DNA from: Leifsonia shinshuensis
Lineage (GTDB): Bacteria; Actinomycetota; Actinomycetes; Actinomycetales; Microbacteriaceae
Length of the DNA: 64,000 nt
Assembly (NCBI RefSeq): GCF_014217625.1
Contig: NZ_CP043641.1
Coordinates: 3,100,001-3,164,000 of the forward strand
Direction: 5' to 3'
The notes beneath the pieces are model-generated. The model saw only the letters and a list, made by a program, of their open reading frames with translations. It was not told the DNA's origin and did not search any database. The position numbers and the translations under genes were made by a program. Positions 6,283 to 53,972 of this stretch are shown in pieces. Each line of letters begins with the position of its first letter. Position 1 is the stretch's first letter.

Positions 6283-9129
6283 ATGGCGCGGTCGCCTTCG
6301 GTCTTCGCCACGCGCGGGCCGACCGTCCTCGAACTGAGGATCCACGGCATCAAGAACACGCCGCCGGCGGAGATGCTCGGCGTCGCGCCGGGCGACGTGC
6401 GCCCGGACCAGGCGGACGAGAACGGCGGCTTCTACGTCCCGACCGTCGACCCTCCCGATCCGTCCGACCCGGCGACGCCGCCGACCGTCATCCGGCGCGA
6501 GGGCTACTCGTGGGGGATGCTGGCCCGCTACGGCGGCGGAGCGCTCGTCGCGATCGGCCAGTTCTTCGTGCAGCTCGCATGGCTCCTCATCCTGCCCTTC
6601 GGCCTGTGCAACACGGCGTACTGGACGCGCCGCATCCCGGACCAGCCGCGCACCGGCGAGTGGCAGGCCGGCCGCGGCGCCGCATCGCTGCGCGTGTTCG
6701 CGCTCGGCCTCACCCTGCTCTATGTGTGCGCGCTGGCGTCGGTGAGCCTGGACCTGATCGGGACCCAGTGCCTCGCCCACCCGTCCCTCTGTCCGGCCCT
6801 GCCCGGCTGGGTGACCGCGTTCTTCACCTCGCCCGGGCTCGACCACCGCGGCATCCGGGTCGCCCTCCTCTCGCTCGTCCCCATCGCGGGCGTGCTGCTG
6901 CTGTTCTTCGTCTCGCACCAGGCGCGCACCCGGTACGAGGCCGGGATCTTCGGCACCGTCGCGAAGATCCGCACGGCCAGCGACCTCAGCGGCGTGACCG
7001 AGGGCCAGGCCGCCACCCCGCGCCGCCCGCTCGCGACCGACGGGTTCTGGGGGATCACCCGGGTGAAGGCGCCGAGCGAGCTGCTGCACACGGCGGCCGC
7101 CTTCTTCCTGATGGCGCTGCTGGTCGGCTGGGACGGCGTGTTCTGGTCGTGCGCGCCCGCCGGTGTCGACCTCCCGCCGGAATGCCTCGACCCGGCGAGC
7201 ACACCGTTGCTGTCGCGCTGGTGGCTGACGCTCGGCGCGGCGCTCGCCGCGGTGGGACTGGTCGCGGTCGTCGCCCTCGTCGTGCGGAACGTGGACACCA
7301 CGGTCCGCGGACGCGCCGAGCGGTCGATGGCGGGCGTCGCGTCCGACGTGCGCGACGCCCGCCGGCACACGATCATCCGGCTGAAGCTGCGGCGGAGGGA
7401 GGCCGTGGCCGGGTGGATGCTGCTGGCCGCGATCGTCGTGTACGCCGCGGTCGCGGTCGCCGTGGCGCTGCCCGTCGCGGTGCCCTCCGGGGCGGCCGCC
7501 GAGCACGCGCCGTCCTTCCTGGGGCTCGTGATCGCGCCCTCCATCATCCTCGGCGTGCTCCTCGCCATCGCCCTCTCGGCGCTCGGCTGGCGCCGGGGTG
7601 TGCCGCGCTGGCTGTCCGTGGTCGTAGTGGTCGTCGGCGGCGTCTCGCTGCTGGTGGCCGTCGTGTCGACCCCGAAAGACCTCCGGCTCGCGCCGCTCAC
7701 CACGGCCGCGTACCTGCTGGCCGCTCTGGCCGCCGTGCTGCTCGCCGCGCTGGTGATCTTCTGGCCGATGGGCCGCCGCCGCAGCTTCGCCTACCAGGGT
7801 TGGCGCGGCACCGGCCCCGGCGTGATCATGCTGCTCTCCCTCGGCGCCGCCATGCTGCTCTCGACCCTCCTCGTGCTCGGCACGCAGTGCGCGCTCGCGT
7901 CCTCCGGCGGCCCGACCCCGATCTGCCCGCTCACCCCCGGCGGGCTGACCACCCCGGTGGCGTACCGCAACTTCGGCGGGACGGTGCCGGTGCTCGCCGT
8001 CGTGCTCGTGCTCTTCGTGCTCGTCGTCGCGCTGCTGCGGATGCGCACGACACCGCGCCTGACCACGCCGGAGACGGTCGGCGGCCGGGCGCTCCGCGAG
8101 CCGCTGCACAACTACCGCGACGGGCGGGTGCCGCAGGTGAAGTCGGCGGGCAAACTGGACTTCCGGATGCTGAACGCCCGCCGGTCGGCGGCGCTGTTCC
8201 ACCGCGGTGAGCCCGTGCTCGGCCTCCTGGCCGCGCTGCTGGCTCTGGGCGTCATCGTGGCCATCGCCCTCCCGCAGCCGCTGCGCCCGGCCCTGCTCGA
8301 CCTGGCCCTGCCCGCCCTCGGCCTGATCTCGGTCGCCGCCGTCGTGACGATCGCCGAGAACGCGCTGACCACGAAGGAGCGCCCCATCGGCGTGATGTGG
8401 GACCTGATGTGCTTCCTCCCACGCGCCGGCCACCCGTTCGGGCCGCCCTGCTACGCCGAGCGCGTCATCCCGGAGCTGCGCGACCGCATCGTCGCCTGGT
8501 TGGAGGCCGACATCGCCGCGGGCGCGGGAACGGTCGGCGACCGCCGCACGGCCGAGGAGCGCGCCCGCGACGAACTGCGGGCGCTGACCACGCGCCAGCG
8601 CCGCAAGGTCGTCGTGAGCGCCCACAGCCTGGGGGCCGTGCTCGCGGTCTCCACCATCTTCACCCTGGGCGCCGACACCACCGACGGCCTCAAGAACGTC
8701 GCCCTGCTCACCTACGGCACGCAACTCCGCGCCTACTTCGGGCGGTTCTTCCCCGAGCTCTTCGGCCCCGCCGCCCTCGGCACCCTCCCGAGCCGGGCCC
8801 CGTCGCTGTGGAAGGCCGACCCGTGGCTGCGCCAAGTCGTCGAGGACCACCTGGCCGAGGGCTCGGGAGGCCGCGACCCCGACCTCCGCGACAAGCCCAC
8901 CCTGCGGGAGCTGCTGACCCAGCCCGACGGGTCGGTGGCGTGGGTGAACCTGTGGCGCCGCACCGACTACCTCGGCTTCCCCGACGCGTCGTTCAAGGAC
9001 AACGAGATCGACCGCGGCGCGGACGAGTTCGGGCCGCCGCTGTACCTGGTGAAGGTGGCGACGCACCCGGGGTACCAGGCGTCGACGCAGTACATGACCG
9101 CCCTCCGCGACCTCATCCGCCGCCTGTGA
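6283..9129 (+). CDS. Large polytopic membrane protein with split alpha/beta-hydrolase-like domain
   Basis: 948 residues. The N-terminus carries ELRIHGIKNTPPAEMLG, which resembles the first strand and oxyanion region of a lipase fold. Some ten hydrophobic segments follow between about residues 80 and 700. The C-terminal 200 residues are soluble and contain VVVSAHSLGAVLAVSTI, a nucleophile elbow (S-x-S-L-G type), with candidate acid and His residues later (for example near ATHPGY). I recognise it as an actinobacterial membrane protein family of unknown role; a membrane-bound lipase or esterase is an inference. TACAGT lies 6 nt before the ATG, so it is probably leaderless. Confidence 0.82.
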   Translation: MARSPSVFATRGPTVLELRIHGIKNTPPAEMLGVAPGDVRPDQADENGGFYVPTVDPPDPSDPATPPTVIRREGYSWGMLARYGGGALVAIGQFFVQLAWLLILPFGLCNTAYWTRRIPDQPRTGEWQAGRGAASLRVFALGLTLLYVCALASVSLDLIGTQCLAHPSLCPALPGWVTAFFTSPGLDHRGIRVALLSLVPIAGVLLLFFVSHQARTRYEAGIFGTVAKIRTASDLSGVTEGQAATPRRPLATDGFWGITRVKAPSELLHTAAAFFLMALLVGWDGVFWSCAPAGVDLPPECLDPASTPLLSRWWLTLGAALAAVGLVAVVALVVRNVDTTVRGRAERSMAGVASDVRDARRHTIIRLKLRRREAVAGWMLLAAIVVYAAVAVAVALPVAVPSGAAAEHAPSFLGLVIAPSIILGVLLAIALSALGWRRGVPRWLSVVVVVVGGVSLLVAVVSTPKDLRLAPLTTAAYLLAALAAVLLAALVIFWPMGRRRSFAYQGWRGTGPGVIMLLSLGAAMLLSTLLVLGTQCALASSGGPTPICPLTPGGLTTPVAYRNFGGTVPVLAVVLVLFVLVVALLRMRTTPRLTTPETVGGRALREPLHNYRDGRVPQVKSAGKLDFRMLNARRSAALFHRGEPVLGLLAALLALGVIVAIALPQPLRPALLDLALPALGLISVAAVVTIAENALTTKERPIGVMWDLMCFLPRAGHPFGPPCYAERVIPELRDRIVAWLEADIAAGAGTVGDRRTAEERARDELRALTTRQRRKVVVSAHSLGAVLAVSTIFTLGADTTDGLKNVALLTYGTQLRAYFGRFFPELFGPAALGTLPSRAPSLWKADPWLRQVVEDHLAEGSGGRDPDLRDKPTLRELLTQPDGSVAWVNLWRRTDYLGFPDASFKDNEIDRGADEFGPPLYLVKVATHPGYQASTQYMTALRDLIRRL

Positions 9130-9146: not shown

Positions 9147-9315
9147 GACATTCGTCACGAATGTCCGCTTTCGCCGCCGCTTTCGCGACATTCGTCACGA
9201 ATGCGCGCTCACCCCCCCCGAATGGCGATTCGTCACGAATGTCGACTTTCGCGGCCGCTTTCGCGACATTCGTCACGAATGTACGTTCGCTTCAGCGTCG
9301 CGATTCGTTGCGAAT
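9147..9315. repeat. Family A palindrome array, locus 1 (five copies)
   Basis: Five copies of a 13-bp palindrome between the large membrane protein gene and the GH3 gene: ATTCGTCACGAAT at 9150, 9190, 9228 and 9268, and ATTCGTTGCGAAT at 9303. The first is embedded in a 19-bp perfect palindrome, GACATTCGTCACGAATGTC (9147-9165). Start-to-start distances are 40, 38, 40 and 35. The 27-bp spacers of the two 40-bp pairs (9163-9189 and 9241-9267) differ at only three positions, so a two-copy unit seems to have been duplicated. Confidence 0.93.
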
Positions 9316-17645: not shown

Positions 17646-17666
17646 AGAAGAACTCCCAAGGGGATC

Positions 17667-17721
17667 GAGGGGCATGTGAACGCCCCGAAAAGTGCCGCTT
17701 GAGGGCGTTTGCGTGCCCCTC
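17667..17721. repeat. Family B hairpin repeat, copy 1
   Basis: Inverted repeat with arms 17667-17687 and 17701-17721 (left arm begins GAGGGGCATGTGAACGCCCC; right arm ends GCGTGCCCCTC), three or four mismatches in the stem, and a 13-nt loop. Clearly the same element as 35173-35221: both share the tail TGCCCCTCGGCGG, the AAAA in the loop and the arm sequence. It lies between two co-directional oxidoreductase genes. Confidence 0.85.
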
Positions 17722-17751
17722 GGCGGAGAGAAGGTGTGGAGAAGGTGGGGG

Positions 17752-18874: not shown

Positions 18875-18927
18875 ATTCGTGCCGAATCGCTGCTTTCGCG
18901 CACCCAGAGTCGACATTCGTGCCGAAT
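18875..18927. repeat. Family A palindrome pair, locus 2
   Basis: Two copies of ATTCGTGCCGAAT at 18875-18887 and 18915-18927, exactly 40 bp start to start, in the gap between the divergent oxidoreductase and alpha/beta hydrolase genes. The second copy ends 15 bp before the TAGCGT box of the hydrolase gene. Same element as at 9147, 36261 and 53855. Confidence 0.9.
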
Positions 18928-34764: not shown

Positions 34765-35165
34765 CGCTCGCTCCGCTGCTGGTGTCGGCCGTCGCGGTGG
34801 TACGGGACCGGCGCGTGCTGATGGTGACCTCCCGCGGCCGCGACGTCTACTACATGCCGGGCGGCAAGATCGACCCCGGCGAGACCGCGGCCGAGGCGGC
34901 GGCACGGGAGGCGGAGGAGGAGGTCGCGCTCGCGCTGGACCCGGCCGCGCTGACCGAGCTGTTCGAGGTGCGGACGCAGGCCCACGGCGAGCCGGACGGC
35001 CGGCAGGTGCACATGCGCGTGTTCCGGGCTCTCACGGACGCCGAGCCGGCGCCGTCGGGGGAGGTGGACGCGGTGCACTGGGTGACGACCGCCGACGCGG
35101 CCCGCTGCCCGCCCGCCGGCCACGCCGTCCTCGACCGTCTGGCCGCCCTCCACCTCATCGACTGA
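34761..35165 (+). CDS. NUDIX hydrolase
   Basis: 134 residues. The NUDIX box is complete: GGKIDPGETAAEAAAREAEEEV, matching G-x5-E-x7-R-E-x2-E-E. Start ATG (34761) overlaps the stop of the SRPBCC gene. About half the usual accessory residues, so only the core fold; may hydrolyse oxidised or damaged nucleotides. A family B hairpin begins 7 bp after its stop. Confidence 0.9.
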   Translation: MTLAPLLVSAVAVVRDRRVLMVTSRGRDVYYMPGGKIDPGETAAEAAAREAEEEVALALDPAALTELFEVRTQAHGEPDGRQVHMRVFRALTDAEPAPSGEVDAVHWVTTADAARCPPAGHAVLDRLAALHLID

Positions 35166-35172
35166 CGCCGAA

Positions 35173-35221
35173 GGGCACGTAAACGCCCCTAAAACGCCGG
35201 AATAGGGGCGTTTACGTGCCC
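35173..35221. repeat. Family B hairpin repeat, copy 2
   Basis: Perfect 18-bp inverted repeat: GGGCACGTAAACGCCCCT (35173-35190) and AGGGGCGTTTACGTGCCC (35204-35221) around a 13-nt loop. The element continues as CTCGGCGG, the same tail as the copy at 17667. It lies between the NUDIX stop and the araR promoter (TAGGGT at 35238), where it could end transcription of the NUDIX operon. Confidence 0.9.
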
Positions 35222-35249
35222 CTCGGCGGCGGTTCAGTAGGGTGTGCAT

Positions 35250-36248
35250 GTGAGTGAGAGCGGGCGCGCGCCGGGCGTGCGGGAGGTCGCGGCCGCCGCG
35301 GGCGTCTCGCGGCAGACCGTGTCGCGCGTGCTCAACGACCATGCGAGCATCCGGCCCGAGACGCGGGAGCGGGTGCTGGCCGCGATGGCCGAGCTGAACT
35401 TCCGGCCGAACCGGGCCGCGCGCATGCTCACCACGGCGCGCTCGCGCACGATCGGCGTGCTGGCGTCGTCGGCGTCCTCGCTGTTCGGGCCGGCCTCCAG
35501 CATCGACGCCGTCGAGCAGGCGGCGCGCGACGCCGGGTACTTCGTGACCGTCGCGCACGCGGCCTCCCTCGATCCGGCGGACCTCGGCGCGGCCGTCGAC
35601 CACCTCGGCGCGCAGTCGGTGGAGGGCGTCATCGTGATCGCCCCGCAGCGGGCGGTGCAGGAGGCCATGGCCGCGTTCTCCCTGGAGGTCCCGTCGGTCA
35701 CCCTGCACGGCGCGGGGGTCGCGGGCGACGACGGCGTCTTCGTGGACCAGCTGGAGGGCGCGCGACTGGCGACCCGGCACCTGCTGTCGCTCGGACACAC
35801 GCGCATCGCGCATCTCAGCGGACCCGGCGACTGGTCGGAGGCACGGGCCCGCCGCGACGGCTTCGTGGCCGAGCTGGCCGCGGCCGGGCTGGAGCCGGTG
35901 CTCTCGCGGGAGGGCGACTGGACCGCCGCGTCCGGCTCGGCGATCGGCGCGGAGCTGCTCGAAGACCCGGAGCTGACGGCAGTGTTCTCCTCCAACGACC
36001 AGATGGCGCTCGGGCTGCTGCACGCGGCGCGCGAGCGGGGACGGCGGGTGCCGGAGGAGCTGGCGGTCGTCGGCTTCGACGACATCCCGGAGGCCGCCTA
36101 CTTCGCGCCCCCGCTGACGACCGTGCGGCAGGACTTCCGCGAGCTGGGTCGCCGCGGCGTCGCCCGCCTGGTCGCGCTCATCGAGGGCCGCGAGCTGGCG
36201 TTCGACGCGCCGGTGGCGCCCGTGCTGGTGGTGCGCGCCTCGGCCTGA
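35250..36248 (+). CDS. araR: LacI-family repressor of arabinose utilisation
   Basis: 332 residues. Helix-turn-helix is VREVAAAAGVSRQTVSRVLNDH with the hinge RPNRAARML; the rest is a periplasmic-binding-like effector domain. It is directly followed by araB-araD-araA, and a palindrome TGTGACCGGTCACA with the central CG of LacI-type sites lies between them. So an L-arabinose-responsive repressor is a strong inference; actinobacterial AraR proteins are of this family. GTG at 35250 chosen with TAGGGT 6 nt upstream. Confidence 0.8.
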   Translation: MSESGRAPGVREVAAAAGVSRQTVSRVLNDHASIRPETRERVLAAMAELNFRPNRAARMLTTARSRTIGVLASSASSLFGPASSIDAVEQAARDAGYFVTVAHAASLDPADLGAAVDHLGAQSVEGVIVIAPQRAVQEAMAAFSLEVPSVTLHGAGVAGDDGVFVDQLEGARLATRHLLSLGHTRIAHLSGPGDWSEARARRDGFVAELAAAGLEPVLSREGDWTAASGSAIGAELLEDPELTAVFSSNDQMALGLLHAARERGRRVPEELAVVGFDDIPEAAYFAPPLTTVRQDFRELGRRGVARLVALIEGRELAFDAPVAPVLVVRASA

Positions 36249-36260
36249 CGCCGCCGCGCG

Positions 36261-36338
36261 ATTCGTGACGAATGTGCACGACGCGATTCGTGACGAATGT
36301 CGCGATTGCGCGCGGCAAAGCCGCGATTCGTGACGAAT
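36261..36338. repeat. Family A palindrome array, locus 3 (three copies)
   Basis: Three copies of ATTCGTGACGAAT at 36261-36273, 36286-36298 and 36326-36338, with start-to-start distances of 25 and 40. The array begins 12 bp after the araR stop and ends 12 bp before the -35 box of the araB promoter. Confidence 0.92.
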
Positions 36339-51925: not shown

Positions 51926-53848
51926 ATGACCTTCACCACCGATCGCGCTCTGCGCACCACCGTCGCCCCCGCCGTCCCCTCGACCGGGCGCCTGCGCCCG
52001 CTCGGCCTCGACGAGGTCCGGATCACCGGAGGCTACTGGGCCGGTCGTCAGCGCGTGAACGCGGCGGCGACCCTGCCGCACATCGAGCACTGGCTGGAGC
52101 GTGAGGGCTGGCTGCCGAACTTCGATCTCGCCGCCGCCGGCACTCTGCCCGAGGGCCGTCGTGGACGCGAGTTCTCGGACTCGGAGGTCTACAAGTTCCT
52201 GGAGGCCGCTGCCTGGCAGCTCGGCCGCGACGACGACCCGGCGCTCGAGGAGCGCTTCCGCAGCGTGGTCGCCCGCGTCGTCGCCGCCCAGGAGGCCGAT
52301 GGCTACCTGAACACGAACTTCGGCCGGCCGGGACAGGGCGAGCGCTGGTCCGACCTGGAGTGGGGCCACGAGTTGTACTGTGCCGGGCACCTGTTCCAGG
52401 CGGCGGTCGCCCGGGTGCGCACCCGGCCGGACGCCGGCGACGGCCTCCTCGGCGTCGCGACCCGGTTCGCCGACCTGATCTGCGACGTCTTCGGCGCCGA
52501 CGGCATCCGATCGGTGTGCGGGCACGCGGAGGTGGAGACCGCGCTCGTGGAGCTCGGCCGGGTGACGGGCGAGGCGCGGTACATCGAGCAGGCCCGGCTC
52601 TTCGTCGAGCGCCGCGGCACCGGCGTGCTGCGCGACATCGAGTGGGGCCGCTCGTACTACCAGGACGACATCCCGGTCCGGGAGGCCGAGGTGCTGCGCG
52701 GTCACGCCGTCCGCGCGAACTACCTGGCCTCCGGCGCCGTCGACGTGGCGACCGAGACCGGCGACGCCGGACTGCTGGGCGCGCTGGAGCGGCAGTGGGC
52801 GAACACCGTCGCGCGCCGCACCTACCTCACCGGCGGCCAGGGCTCGCACCACCAGGACGAGGCCTTCGGGGACGACTTCGAGCTGCCGCCGGACCGCGCG
52901 TACTCGGAGACCTGCGCGGGCGTCGCGTCCGTGCAGTTCTCGTGGCGGATGCTGCTGGCCCGCGGCGGCAGCGGGTACGCGGACCTGGTGGAGCGCACGC
53001 TCTTCAACGTCGTCGCGACCTCCCCGTCGGCGGACGGCACGGCCTTCTACTACGCGAACACGCTGCACCGCCGCACTCCGGGCGAGCCGGCCGACCCCGA
53101 CACGGTGTCGCCGCGTGCCGAGTCCTCGCTGCGCGCGCCGTGGTTCGAGGTCACCTGCTGCCCGCCGAACGTGGCGCGCACGCTCGCGAGCCTGGACTCG
53201 TACCTGGCGACCGCCTCCGACGACGGCGTGCAGCTGCAGCAGTTCGCCCCTGCGCGCGTGGCGACGGCTCTGACCGACGGGCAGGAGGTCGAGCTCACCG
53301 TGACGACGGCCTATCCCTCGGACGGCCGCGTGGAGGTCGTGGTGGGCCGCGACGCGAGCGCGCCGTGGACGCTCTCCCTGCGTGTGCCCGACTGGGCCGC
53401 AGGCGCCACCCTGACGGTGGACGGCGAGACCACGGAGGTCGCGCCGGGCTACGCCGAGGTCCGCAGGGCCTTCCGCGCCGGGGACACGGTCGTGCTCGAT
53501 CTGCCGGTCGCGCCGCGGTTCGTCCGCGCCGACCCCCGCATCGACGCCGTCCGCGGCAGCGTCGCGGTCCAGCGCGGGCCGGTGGTCCAGGCGCTGGAGT
53601 CGGTCGACCTCCCGGACGGCTGGCCGGATGTCGCCGACGTCGTCGTGGACACCGCGGTCGCGCCGCGGGACGAAGACGGCCGCGTCGTCGTCCGGCTGTG
53701 TCGTCGCCGGGTGGCCGACGCCGGCTGGCCCTACGGCGCAGGCGCGCCTGTCGAGGCCGAGGCCGCCGTCGACGTCCCCCTGGTCGCGTACCACGACTGG
53801 GCCGAGCGCGGCCCGTCGACCATGCGCGTCTGGATCCCCGAGAGCTGA
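51926..53848 (+). CDS. Glycoside hydrolase family 127 (beta-L-arabinofuranosidase)
   Basis: 640 residues, no signal peptide. Starts with LDEVRITGGYWAGRQRVNAAATLPHIEHW, typical for the family. The zinc-cysteine site is seen in AYSETCAGVASVQFSWRML (Glu and Cys) and FEVTCCPPNVARTLASL (two Cys, one the nucleophile), as known from the Bifidobacterium enzyme HypBA1. Releases L-arabinose from beta-L-arabinofuranosides (from hydroxyproline-linked arabinans in plants). Sits directly behind the importer, so it acts on imported oligosaccharide inside the cell, and its product feeds araA-araB-araD at 36422. Confidence 0.93.
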   Translation: MTFTTDRALRTTVAPAVPSTGRLRPLGLDEVRITGGYWAGRQRVNAAATLPHIEHWLEREGWLPNFDLAAAGTLPEGRRGREFSDSEVYKFLEAAAWQLGRDDDPALEERFRSVVARVVAAQEADGYLNTNFGRPGQGERWSDLEWGHELYCAGHLFQAAVARVRTRPDAGDGLLGVATRFADLICDVFGADGIRSVCGHAEVETALVELGRVTGEARYIEQARLFVERRGTGVLRDIEWGRSYYQDDIPVREAEVLRGHAVRANYLASGAVDVATETGDAGLLGALERQWANTVARRTYLTGGQGSHHQDEAFGDDFELPPDRAYSETCAGVASVQFSWRMLLARGGSGYADLVERTLFNVVATSPSADGTAFYYANTLHRRTPGEPADPDTVSPRAESSLRAPWFEVTCCPPNVARTLASLDSYLATASDDGVQLQQFAPARVATALTDGQEVELTVTTAYPSDGRVEVVVGRDASAPWTLSLRVPDWAAGATLTVDGETTEVAPGYAEVRRAFRAGDTVVLDLPVAPRFVRADPRIDAVRGSVAVQRGPVVQALESVDLPDGWPDVADVVVDTAVAPRDEDGRVVVRLCRRRVADAGWPYGAGAPVEAEAAVDVPLVAYHDWAERGPSTMRVWIPES

Positions 53849-53854
53849 GCCGCG

Positions 53855-53972
53855 ATTCGTGCCGAATGTCGCGTTTCGCGCGCGCGTTCGCGCGATTCGT
53901 GACGAATCGTCCCGCCGCGATTCGTGCCGAATGTCGCGATAGCCGCGCGCGTTCGCGCGATTCGTGACGAAT
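53855..53972. repeat. Family A palindrome array, locus 4 (four copies)
   Basis: Four copies: ATTCGTGCCGAAT at 53855 and 53920, ATTCGTGACGAAT at 53895 and 53960, each 13 bp. Start-to-start distances 40, 25 and 40, i.e. two identical pairs. Their spacers also match: both begin GTCGCG and end with CGCGCGTTCGCGCG. It fills the 134-bp gap between the convergent GH127 and regulator 2 genes. Confidence 0.95.

Follow-up and report, generated by a model that had tools for sequence, protein, structure and literature searches.

The window analysed here, a 64,000-nucleotide stretch of the Leifsonia shinshuensis genome (G000; loci are given in window coordinates), carries a dispersed palindromic repeat, family A, whose copies also flank a nuclease gene in the same genome. 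The family A unit is 53 bp long and consists of two 13-bp palindromes, with starts 40 bp apart, around a variable 27-bp spacer. Locus 53855-53972 sits between two convergent genes ending at 53848 (+) and 53983 (-), beginning 6 bp past one gene end and finishing 10 bp short of the opposing gene's end. Each of its two 53-bp elements is formed by the palindromes ATTCGTGCCGAAT and ATTCGTGACGAAT. The four palindromes start at 53855, 53895, 53920 and 53960, in steps of 40, 25 and 40 bp, and the two 27-bp spacers are alike. The family A features of the window are:

53855..53907, no strand: 53-bp element, copy 1, with palindromes at 53855-53867 and 53895-53907 (read from the sequence)
53920..53972, no strand: 53-bp element, copy 2, with palindromes at 53920-53932 and 53960-53972, 12 bp after copy 1
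9150..9202, no strand: 53-bp element, 20 bp past the end of the + gene 6283-9129
9228..9280, no strand: 53-bp element, second copy at locus 9150-9315
9303..9315, no strand: single palindrome with the variant core ATTCGTTGCGAAT
18875..18927, no strand: 53-bp element in a divergent gap, a minority context
36261..36273, no strand: single palindrome, 12 bp past the end of the + gene 35250-36248
36286..36338, no strand: 53-bp element

The original prediction for this DNA had described the four palindromes as two 40-bp pairs, 25 bp apart and with matching spacers, and had named three other loci with a 40-bp step each. Starts and steps are confirmed, the other loci beginning at 9150 (written there as 9147), 18875 and 36261, and across copies the palindromes indeed stay constant as the spacers vary. 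Its view that these were not simply copies of one long element is not supported in that form, as the fixed 40-bp pitch is the internal geometry of the 53-bp family A element.

The motif is strongly over-represented. On both strands of the window, with up to two mismatches, 29 matches were found; 100 shuffles gave 3.08 on average and never more than 9. Genome-wide, exact copies of the motif ATTCGTNNCGAAT number 184 in forward and 140 in reverse orientation, two sets that overlap because TNA-type cores match both strands; the reversed-pattern control gave 0/0. Spacing figures were drawn from 100 listed forward matches. Among these, 65 neighbour spacings are shorter than 200 bp, with 40 bp occurring 35 times, 35 bp 14 times and 25 bp four times. 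A 40-bp step is present in 21 of the 24 clusters of at least two copies, single palindromes account for 11 of the 35 clusters, and tandem copies of family A add steps of 35, 25 and 75/65 bp. The genome-wide excess at 40 bp and of the motif itself, proposed earlier as a check, is therefore present, and the distances are clearly not random. Being exact palindromes with a constant pitch near four helical turns, the sites could also be bound by nucleoid or condensin proteins and be selected for their geometry. We regard this as very improbable, given that 6/28 congeners have no pairs, that the clusters lie behind genes, and that a partner gene with another fold is available, as described below.

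The placement relative to genes, based on a simple codon-usage gene caller, is far from even. Between two genes we placed 109 clusters of at least two palindromes, 58 of them in convergent, 41 in tandem and 10 in divergent gaps (a further 2 fell within called genes, and 13 were discarded because they lay at locus edges). Among background gaps of 60 bp or more in these loci, 102 were convergent, 244 tandem and 149 divergent. The median distance of a cluster was 17 bp to a stop codon (n=157) and 90 bp to a start codon (n=61). Family A copies typically sit just past stop codons, and more than half of the placed clusters are in convergent gaps.

This placement, together with the strong hairpins predicted when five examples were folded as RNA (-24 to -52 kcal/mol), leads to the main rival explanation, namely that the host selects 3'-end hairpins as bidirectional terminators or mRNA 3' stabilisers, and that a nuclease gene merely carries two of them. 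The flanks of 108 isolated units do not fit an intrinsic terminator, because no T run follows the element: in the 216 oriented flanks, T was found at +1 in none, at +2 in 136, and at +3 to +8 in 6-14%. Nor would a pure terminator need the exact 13-bp sequence and the 40-bp pitch. As an explanation of the whole pattern, host selection is in our opinion unlikely, although it may hold together with an activity of the nuclease, because sites behind genes are those where inserts harm least. The same flanks favour CGAC outside and GTCG inside, and hold no column set corresponding to a GTAG or CGTC tag. Rfam gave no match at gathering scores for the window and four loci, and the window locus was without match in plasmid and phage collections.

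When a gap of 20-40 bp was allowed, 22 of 28 Leifsonia genomes contained the palindrome pair, among them the present one, and none of 32 sampled genomes from other genera did. Forward pair counts ranged from 3 to 351 across the 22 pair-bearing genomes. When 398 genomes were drawn from across the family and the gap was set to 26-28 bp, 9/10 Leifsonia and 0/388 others matched. Furthermore, a scan of a public genome collection retrieved at least 120 stretches; among the matches listed, 119 were from Leifsonia and one from Microbacterium sp. 18062. Six genomes of array-free species contain 0 to 4 single motifs each, which were sought as conserved single operators and thus as a clue to the binding protein. 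The spacer contains a third, central palindrome in three genomes, of 13 bp in G009 and of 15 bp in G008 and G026. The 351 forward matches belong to G015 (Leifsonia sp. CL147), in which family A forms tandem arrays with 40- or 80-bp periods (L048, L069, L106, L124, L191). Some of these arrays are near contig ends, and therefore assemblies may break there.

The partner gene was found at the AMP-ligase locus. The gene between the two elements there encodes a 303-residue protein (L086) with an MTES_1575/DUF559-type nuclease domain. It was first noticed because of the elements on both sides, which makes it a biased choice; the independent evidence came after. In this genome, the putative cognate gene is:

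G000 C1:254231-255067: AbiEi-Vsr nuclease gene, proposed as the partner of family A, with a family A element on both sides

The sole non-Leifsonia pair among the matches listed, which was retrieved by pattern alone, adjoins a nuclease homologue in Microbacterium sp. 18062, with a diverged copy on the other side of that gene. By predicted fold, the standalone protein combines an N-terminal AbiEi-like DNA-binding part with a C-terminal Vsr/EDxHD-homing-nuclease part, so that a Vsr-like catalytic fold is present at the level of prediction. The residues E198, D231, H248 and D258 are invariant in 44 nuclease sequences and likely represent the EDxHD catalytic motif. NCBIfam contained no family for eight nuclease homologues, and a sequence-profile search of the PDB gave no match for the nuclease.

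Two flanking copies are the rule for such genes, and rare for others. We collected the domain matches in the 28 Leifsonia genomes, took the standalone ones (76 stretches) and aligned their upstream and downstream flanks. The family profile matched 83 gene calls; leaving aside 33 of insufficient length and 1 redundant call, 49 genes were scored, 48 from Leifsonia and one from Microbacterium. By the strict score, the two flanks share a segment in 39/49 nuclease genes, compared with 2/200 other genes in the same loci (L332 3221-3946 and L373 2519-3508). Without the six AMP-ligase-locus genes and the Microbacterium gene, 33/42 genes from 22 genomes are bracketed. A first test with short upstream windows had given 17/43 vs 2/218; the windows were lengthened because called starts are often internal, after the first result was seen and for genes and controls alike, and stricter scoring left the 39/49 vs 2/200 unchanged. 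In family A-rich loci 5/572 other genes pass the bracketing score, and none of the 47 window genes does. Two matching hairpins around one gene being this rare elsewhere (2/200; 5/572), host selection for 3'-end hairpins does not readily account for them around the nuclease genes. A single long frame of about 1255 residues (1254-1260 amino acids) with the same nuclease domain is also found in most Leifsonia genomes; this frame was excluded from the bracketing test.

Different nuclease paralogues carry different hairpins. Of 15 species compared at one orthologous nuclease locus, 13 have an upstream hairpin whose best match, sole or tied, is the downstream hairpin of the same species. Hairpin and protein distances are correlated with r = 0.33 (one locus, whole proteins, host DNA still in the flanks). 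The brackets could in principle serve autoregulation only, with the AbiEi-like part binding them as operators that control its own gene, and with another route spreading and maintaining the copies across the genome. The nuclease N-terminal part does have a fold match to AbiEi, and antitoxins of the AbiEi family bind inverted repeats located in the promoters of their own genes (PMC7319586). Nevertheless, we consider this improbable, because one bracket of the nuclease gene lies downstream of the stop codon, and because some bracketing hairpins are dispersed in tens to hundreds of copies, which plain autoregulation leaves unexplained. A single motif of G012, beside the nuclease homologue L202, was tried as an operator and rejected; it is inside coding sequence and probably there by chance. 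By eye, the L202 gene is bracketed by another inverted repeat.

The association extends beyond Leifsonia. A profile of 13 nuclease proteins (A1) found homologues in 130/139 genomes of the order, this one included. Outside Leifsonia, the 29 best matches for which flanks were available were taken, each from a different genome. These genes represent eight families, and 24/29 are bracketed, compared with 1/232 mismatched flank pairs. Clear inverted repeats are present at 21/29 of these genes, again from eight families, and looser scoring gave 27/29 vs 2/174 mismatched pairs and 3/29 reversed flanks. Some of the hairpins recur elsewhere in their genomes. The G485 hairpin was found at four further places in 400 kb and the G504 hairpin at two places in 400 kb (one weak, E 5e-5), with no hit for shuffled dyads in either case. 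In L. shinshuensis itself, a second hairpin, family C, gave 80 BLAST matches on both strands at about 40 places (40 of 61 candidates were scored), and a second AbiEi-Vsr nuclease gene (G000 C1:3512848-3513666) has a copy of it immediately upstream. Two such hairpins are located in the window:

35165..35230, no strand: family C hairpin (GAGGGGCACGTAAACGCCCC...), dispersed according to BLAST
17664..17726, no strand: family C-like hairpin, the second in the window, between two - genes

Dispersal is thereby shown for four bracketing hairpins: A, C, and those of G485 and G504. Across the sequences collected, 15 bracketing hairpins occurred at between 112 places (A) and 1 (Q), with 2 for I and 3 each for G and N.

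This arrangement is reminiscent of the REPIN/RAYT system of repetitive extragenic palindromic (REP) sequences. Earlier papers describe RAYT genes as flanked by two REPs evolving with them (Nunvar et al., PMC2817692), and define the doublet as the unit (Bertels and Rainey, PMC3116915). Family A doublets are likewise inverted and intergenic, with conserved ends and a variable spacer, in tens to hundreds of copies; likewise, the enzyme gene is flanked by its own repeats, and different enzyme genes have different repeats. An enzyme gene between two repeat copies is thus found here (39/49, 24/29), but for a different enzyme. Many extragenic inverted doublets are found too, the 53-mer being a dyad at the nuclease locus and less so in dispersed copies. 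Here, however, an AbiEi-Vsr/EDxHD nuclease takes the place of the Y1/HUH transposase, and family A is without the GTAG tag, its ends themselves being perfect 13-bp palindromes. Because the defining enzyme was not found and the tag not seen, family A is not a member of REPIN/RAYT. Of the mobile REP-like element that the original prediction had listed as an option, the dispersed REPIN-like layout stands and the RAYT-type transposase falls: PF01797 was detected in 0/28 Leifsonia genomes, including this one, with the positive control detected in 5/14 known genomes. The RAYT was accordingly rejected as the family A mobiliser. Classical REP elements or bacterial interspersed mosaic elements (BIMEs), moved by a RAYT (Y1/HUH) transposase, would match the inverted, intergenic, many-copy doublets and the bracketed enzyme gene; with neither PF01797 nor the tag, this explanation is already largely refuted, and we give it next to no weight.

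Other known systems come close to the arrangement. TnsA of Tn7 differs in that it works with TnsB on long transposon ends. EDxHD homing endonucleases (I-Bth0305I) and Vsr differ in that no intron or intein setting was seen here, that the N-terminal part is AbiEi-like, and that the gene is bracketed by dispersed hairpins. In contrast to AbiEi antitoxins of the AbiE type IV toxin-antitoxin systems, the AbiEi-like part is fused to a nuclease. A survey of HEPN proteins named the MTES_1575 domain a novel Vsr-type restriction endonuclease, and its accessible part mentions no repeats (PMC3710099). The literature on DUF559, MTES_1575, RAYT/REP, Vsr, AbiEi and Leifsonia repeats, with subscription papers mostly outside reach, yielded no description of a nuclease-hairpin pairing, nor was a known maker found for the palindromic repeats that follow genes in this group of high-GC Gram-positive bacteria. 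No earlier description having been found, we regard the pairing as new.

How the element is conserved depends on the site. At 40 bp from an intact palindrome lay 523 exact palindromes, 35 with one mismatch and two with two mismatches, and almost all remaining positions held unrelated sequence; this count is biased by the choice of most loci for exact pairs. The gene-anchored comparison avoids this bias. On the 3' side of the AMP-ligase gene, a 53-mer of family A type with at most four end mismatches is present in 23/28 Leifsonia genomes. The dyad test at this site covered 22 genomes with 19 distinct rows (G015, whose locus runs into a contig end, was left out) and used five measures, two of them weak. 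The complete 53-bp dyad was 85.8% paired vs 28-44% when slid, and the covariation score was 0.369 vs at most 0.134 slid, with a shuffled mean of 0.161. The aligned rows thus indicate that the whole dyad is kept through compensatory changes at this one orthologous site, which would also suit host-selected 3'-end hairpins. Dispersed copies differ from the nuclease locus, where the 53-mer is a dyad. What these copies retain is the pair of end palindromes and their pitch, as in REPINs. A general excess of arm complementarity in dispersed copies was considered and dropped, since in most genomes the inner arms differ about as much within as between copies; a weak excess appeared in one test. At the AMP-ligase site and the next site downstream, the palindrome reads ATTTG..CAAAT, fully or partly, in G001, G003, G006, G013, G019 and G025. 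In G006 (L296), the AMP-locus nuclease homologue is apparently split over two frames and the flanking palindromes are of mixed ATTTG/ATTCG types, possibly a decaying pair.

We consider it probable that family A is a REPIN-like, non-coding dispersed element, which its cognate AbiEi-Vsr nuclease binds, cuts and spreads via repair. The association between enzyme and repeat is observed; from the sequences compared we infer the mobilisation. The AbiEi-like N-terminal part would recognize the palindromes, probably as a dimer across both ends, and a dimer bound in this way would fix the 40-bp pitch. The Vsr/EDxHD C-terminal part could nick or cut at the hairpin or at its target. Repair would then copy the hairpin into tolerated sites behind genes, and would keep the hairpin ends uniform and, near the nuclease gene, the arms as well. 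More tentatively, and with slightly less than even confidence, we propose a whole class of actinobacterial hairpin repeats, differing in sequence from genome to genome, made and kept by AbiEi-Vsr nucleases that each copy their own hairpin behind genes. Very-short-patch-like repair of the extruded hairpin would use one arm to rewrite the other and thereby lead to concerted change of both, and with this class the REPIN/RAYT principle would have been invented a second time, independently and with a homing-nuclease fold.

Several observations weigh against the nuclease as maker of the repeats. The Pfam PF18741 scores of the scanned nuclease proteins are below the curated cut-off. The 33 gene calls that were too short stayed untested, 10/49 and 5/29 nuclease genes fall below the bracketing score, and the orthologous genes among the 49 are non-independent. 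Of two nuclease genes in family A-rich loci, one passes, and the L116 homologue is unbracketed (score 10). Pairs occur in 22/24 genomes with a nuclease gene and in 0/4 without, a correlation uncorrected for phylogeny; G006 and G012 carry the gene in the absence of exact pairs, and G008 carries it with 3 pairs only. At the AMP-ligase site, two weak measures are less favourable: 16/26 pairs change on both sides, equalled by 16/500 shuffles, and the number of further pair types was reached by 120/500 shuffles. In dispersed copies, the inner arms of one copy mostly pair no better with each other than with those of other copies. The loci compared showed no excision, no insertion footprint and no clean empty site, nor did they offer a clean empty/occupied pair for the target-site duplication check relevant to a miniature inverted-repeat transposable element (MITE). 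Finally, hairpins I, Q, G and N were seen at only 1 to 3 places in the sequences collected, and therefore dispersal is established for some families only.

The nuclease partner was unexpected and had not been foreseen by the original prediction. It provides a concrete, testable enzyme for palindromic repeats, with homologues throughout most sampled genomes of the order, and suggests a role for the DUF559/MTES_1575-type "very-short-patch-repair endonucleases", which are named in sources without a tested function. One nuclease dimer binding the two ends of one hairpin would offer a simple reason for the 40-bp pitch. If true, nuclease-hairpin pairs could be read directly from genomes, and the concerted change of both arms would be a measurable reaction.

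At the 3' end of htpX, close relatives differ: some carry the element, with 2 to 13 palindromes, and others lack it. From its presence at the AMP-ligase site and its variable presence at htpX, it follows that the element is old at some sites and was gained or lost at others. The full 53-bp element in L257 (G021) is replaced by a single altered palindrome with similar flanks in L262 (G016), the two genomes being about 94% identical in the loci compared. The difference looks like the loss or gain of one 40-bp unit. G018 and G022, with genomes of 2.6-2.7 Mb, are without the AMP-locus nuclease and all family A pairs, and their htpX match is broken into four and two pieces, respectively, as if a pseudogene. 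In the htpX loci L246-L268, species without family A show, by eye, other long inverted repeats in the same place (G001, G002, G007, G013, G020 and others), which argues in favour of host-selected 3'-end hairpins. The inverted repeats of G001, G013 and G020 at this site resemble hairpins that bracket nuclease genes.
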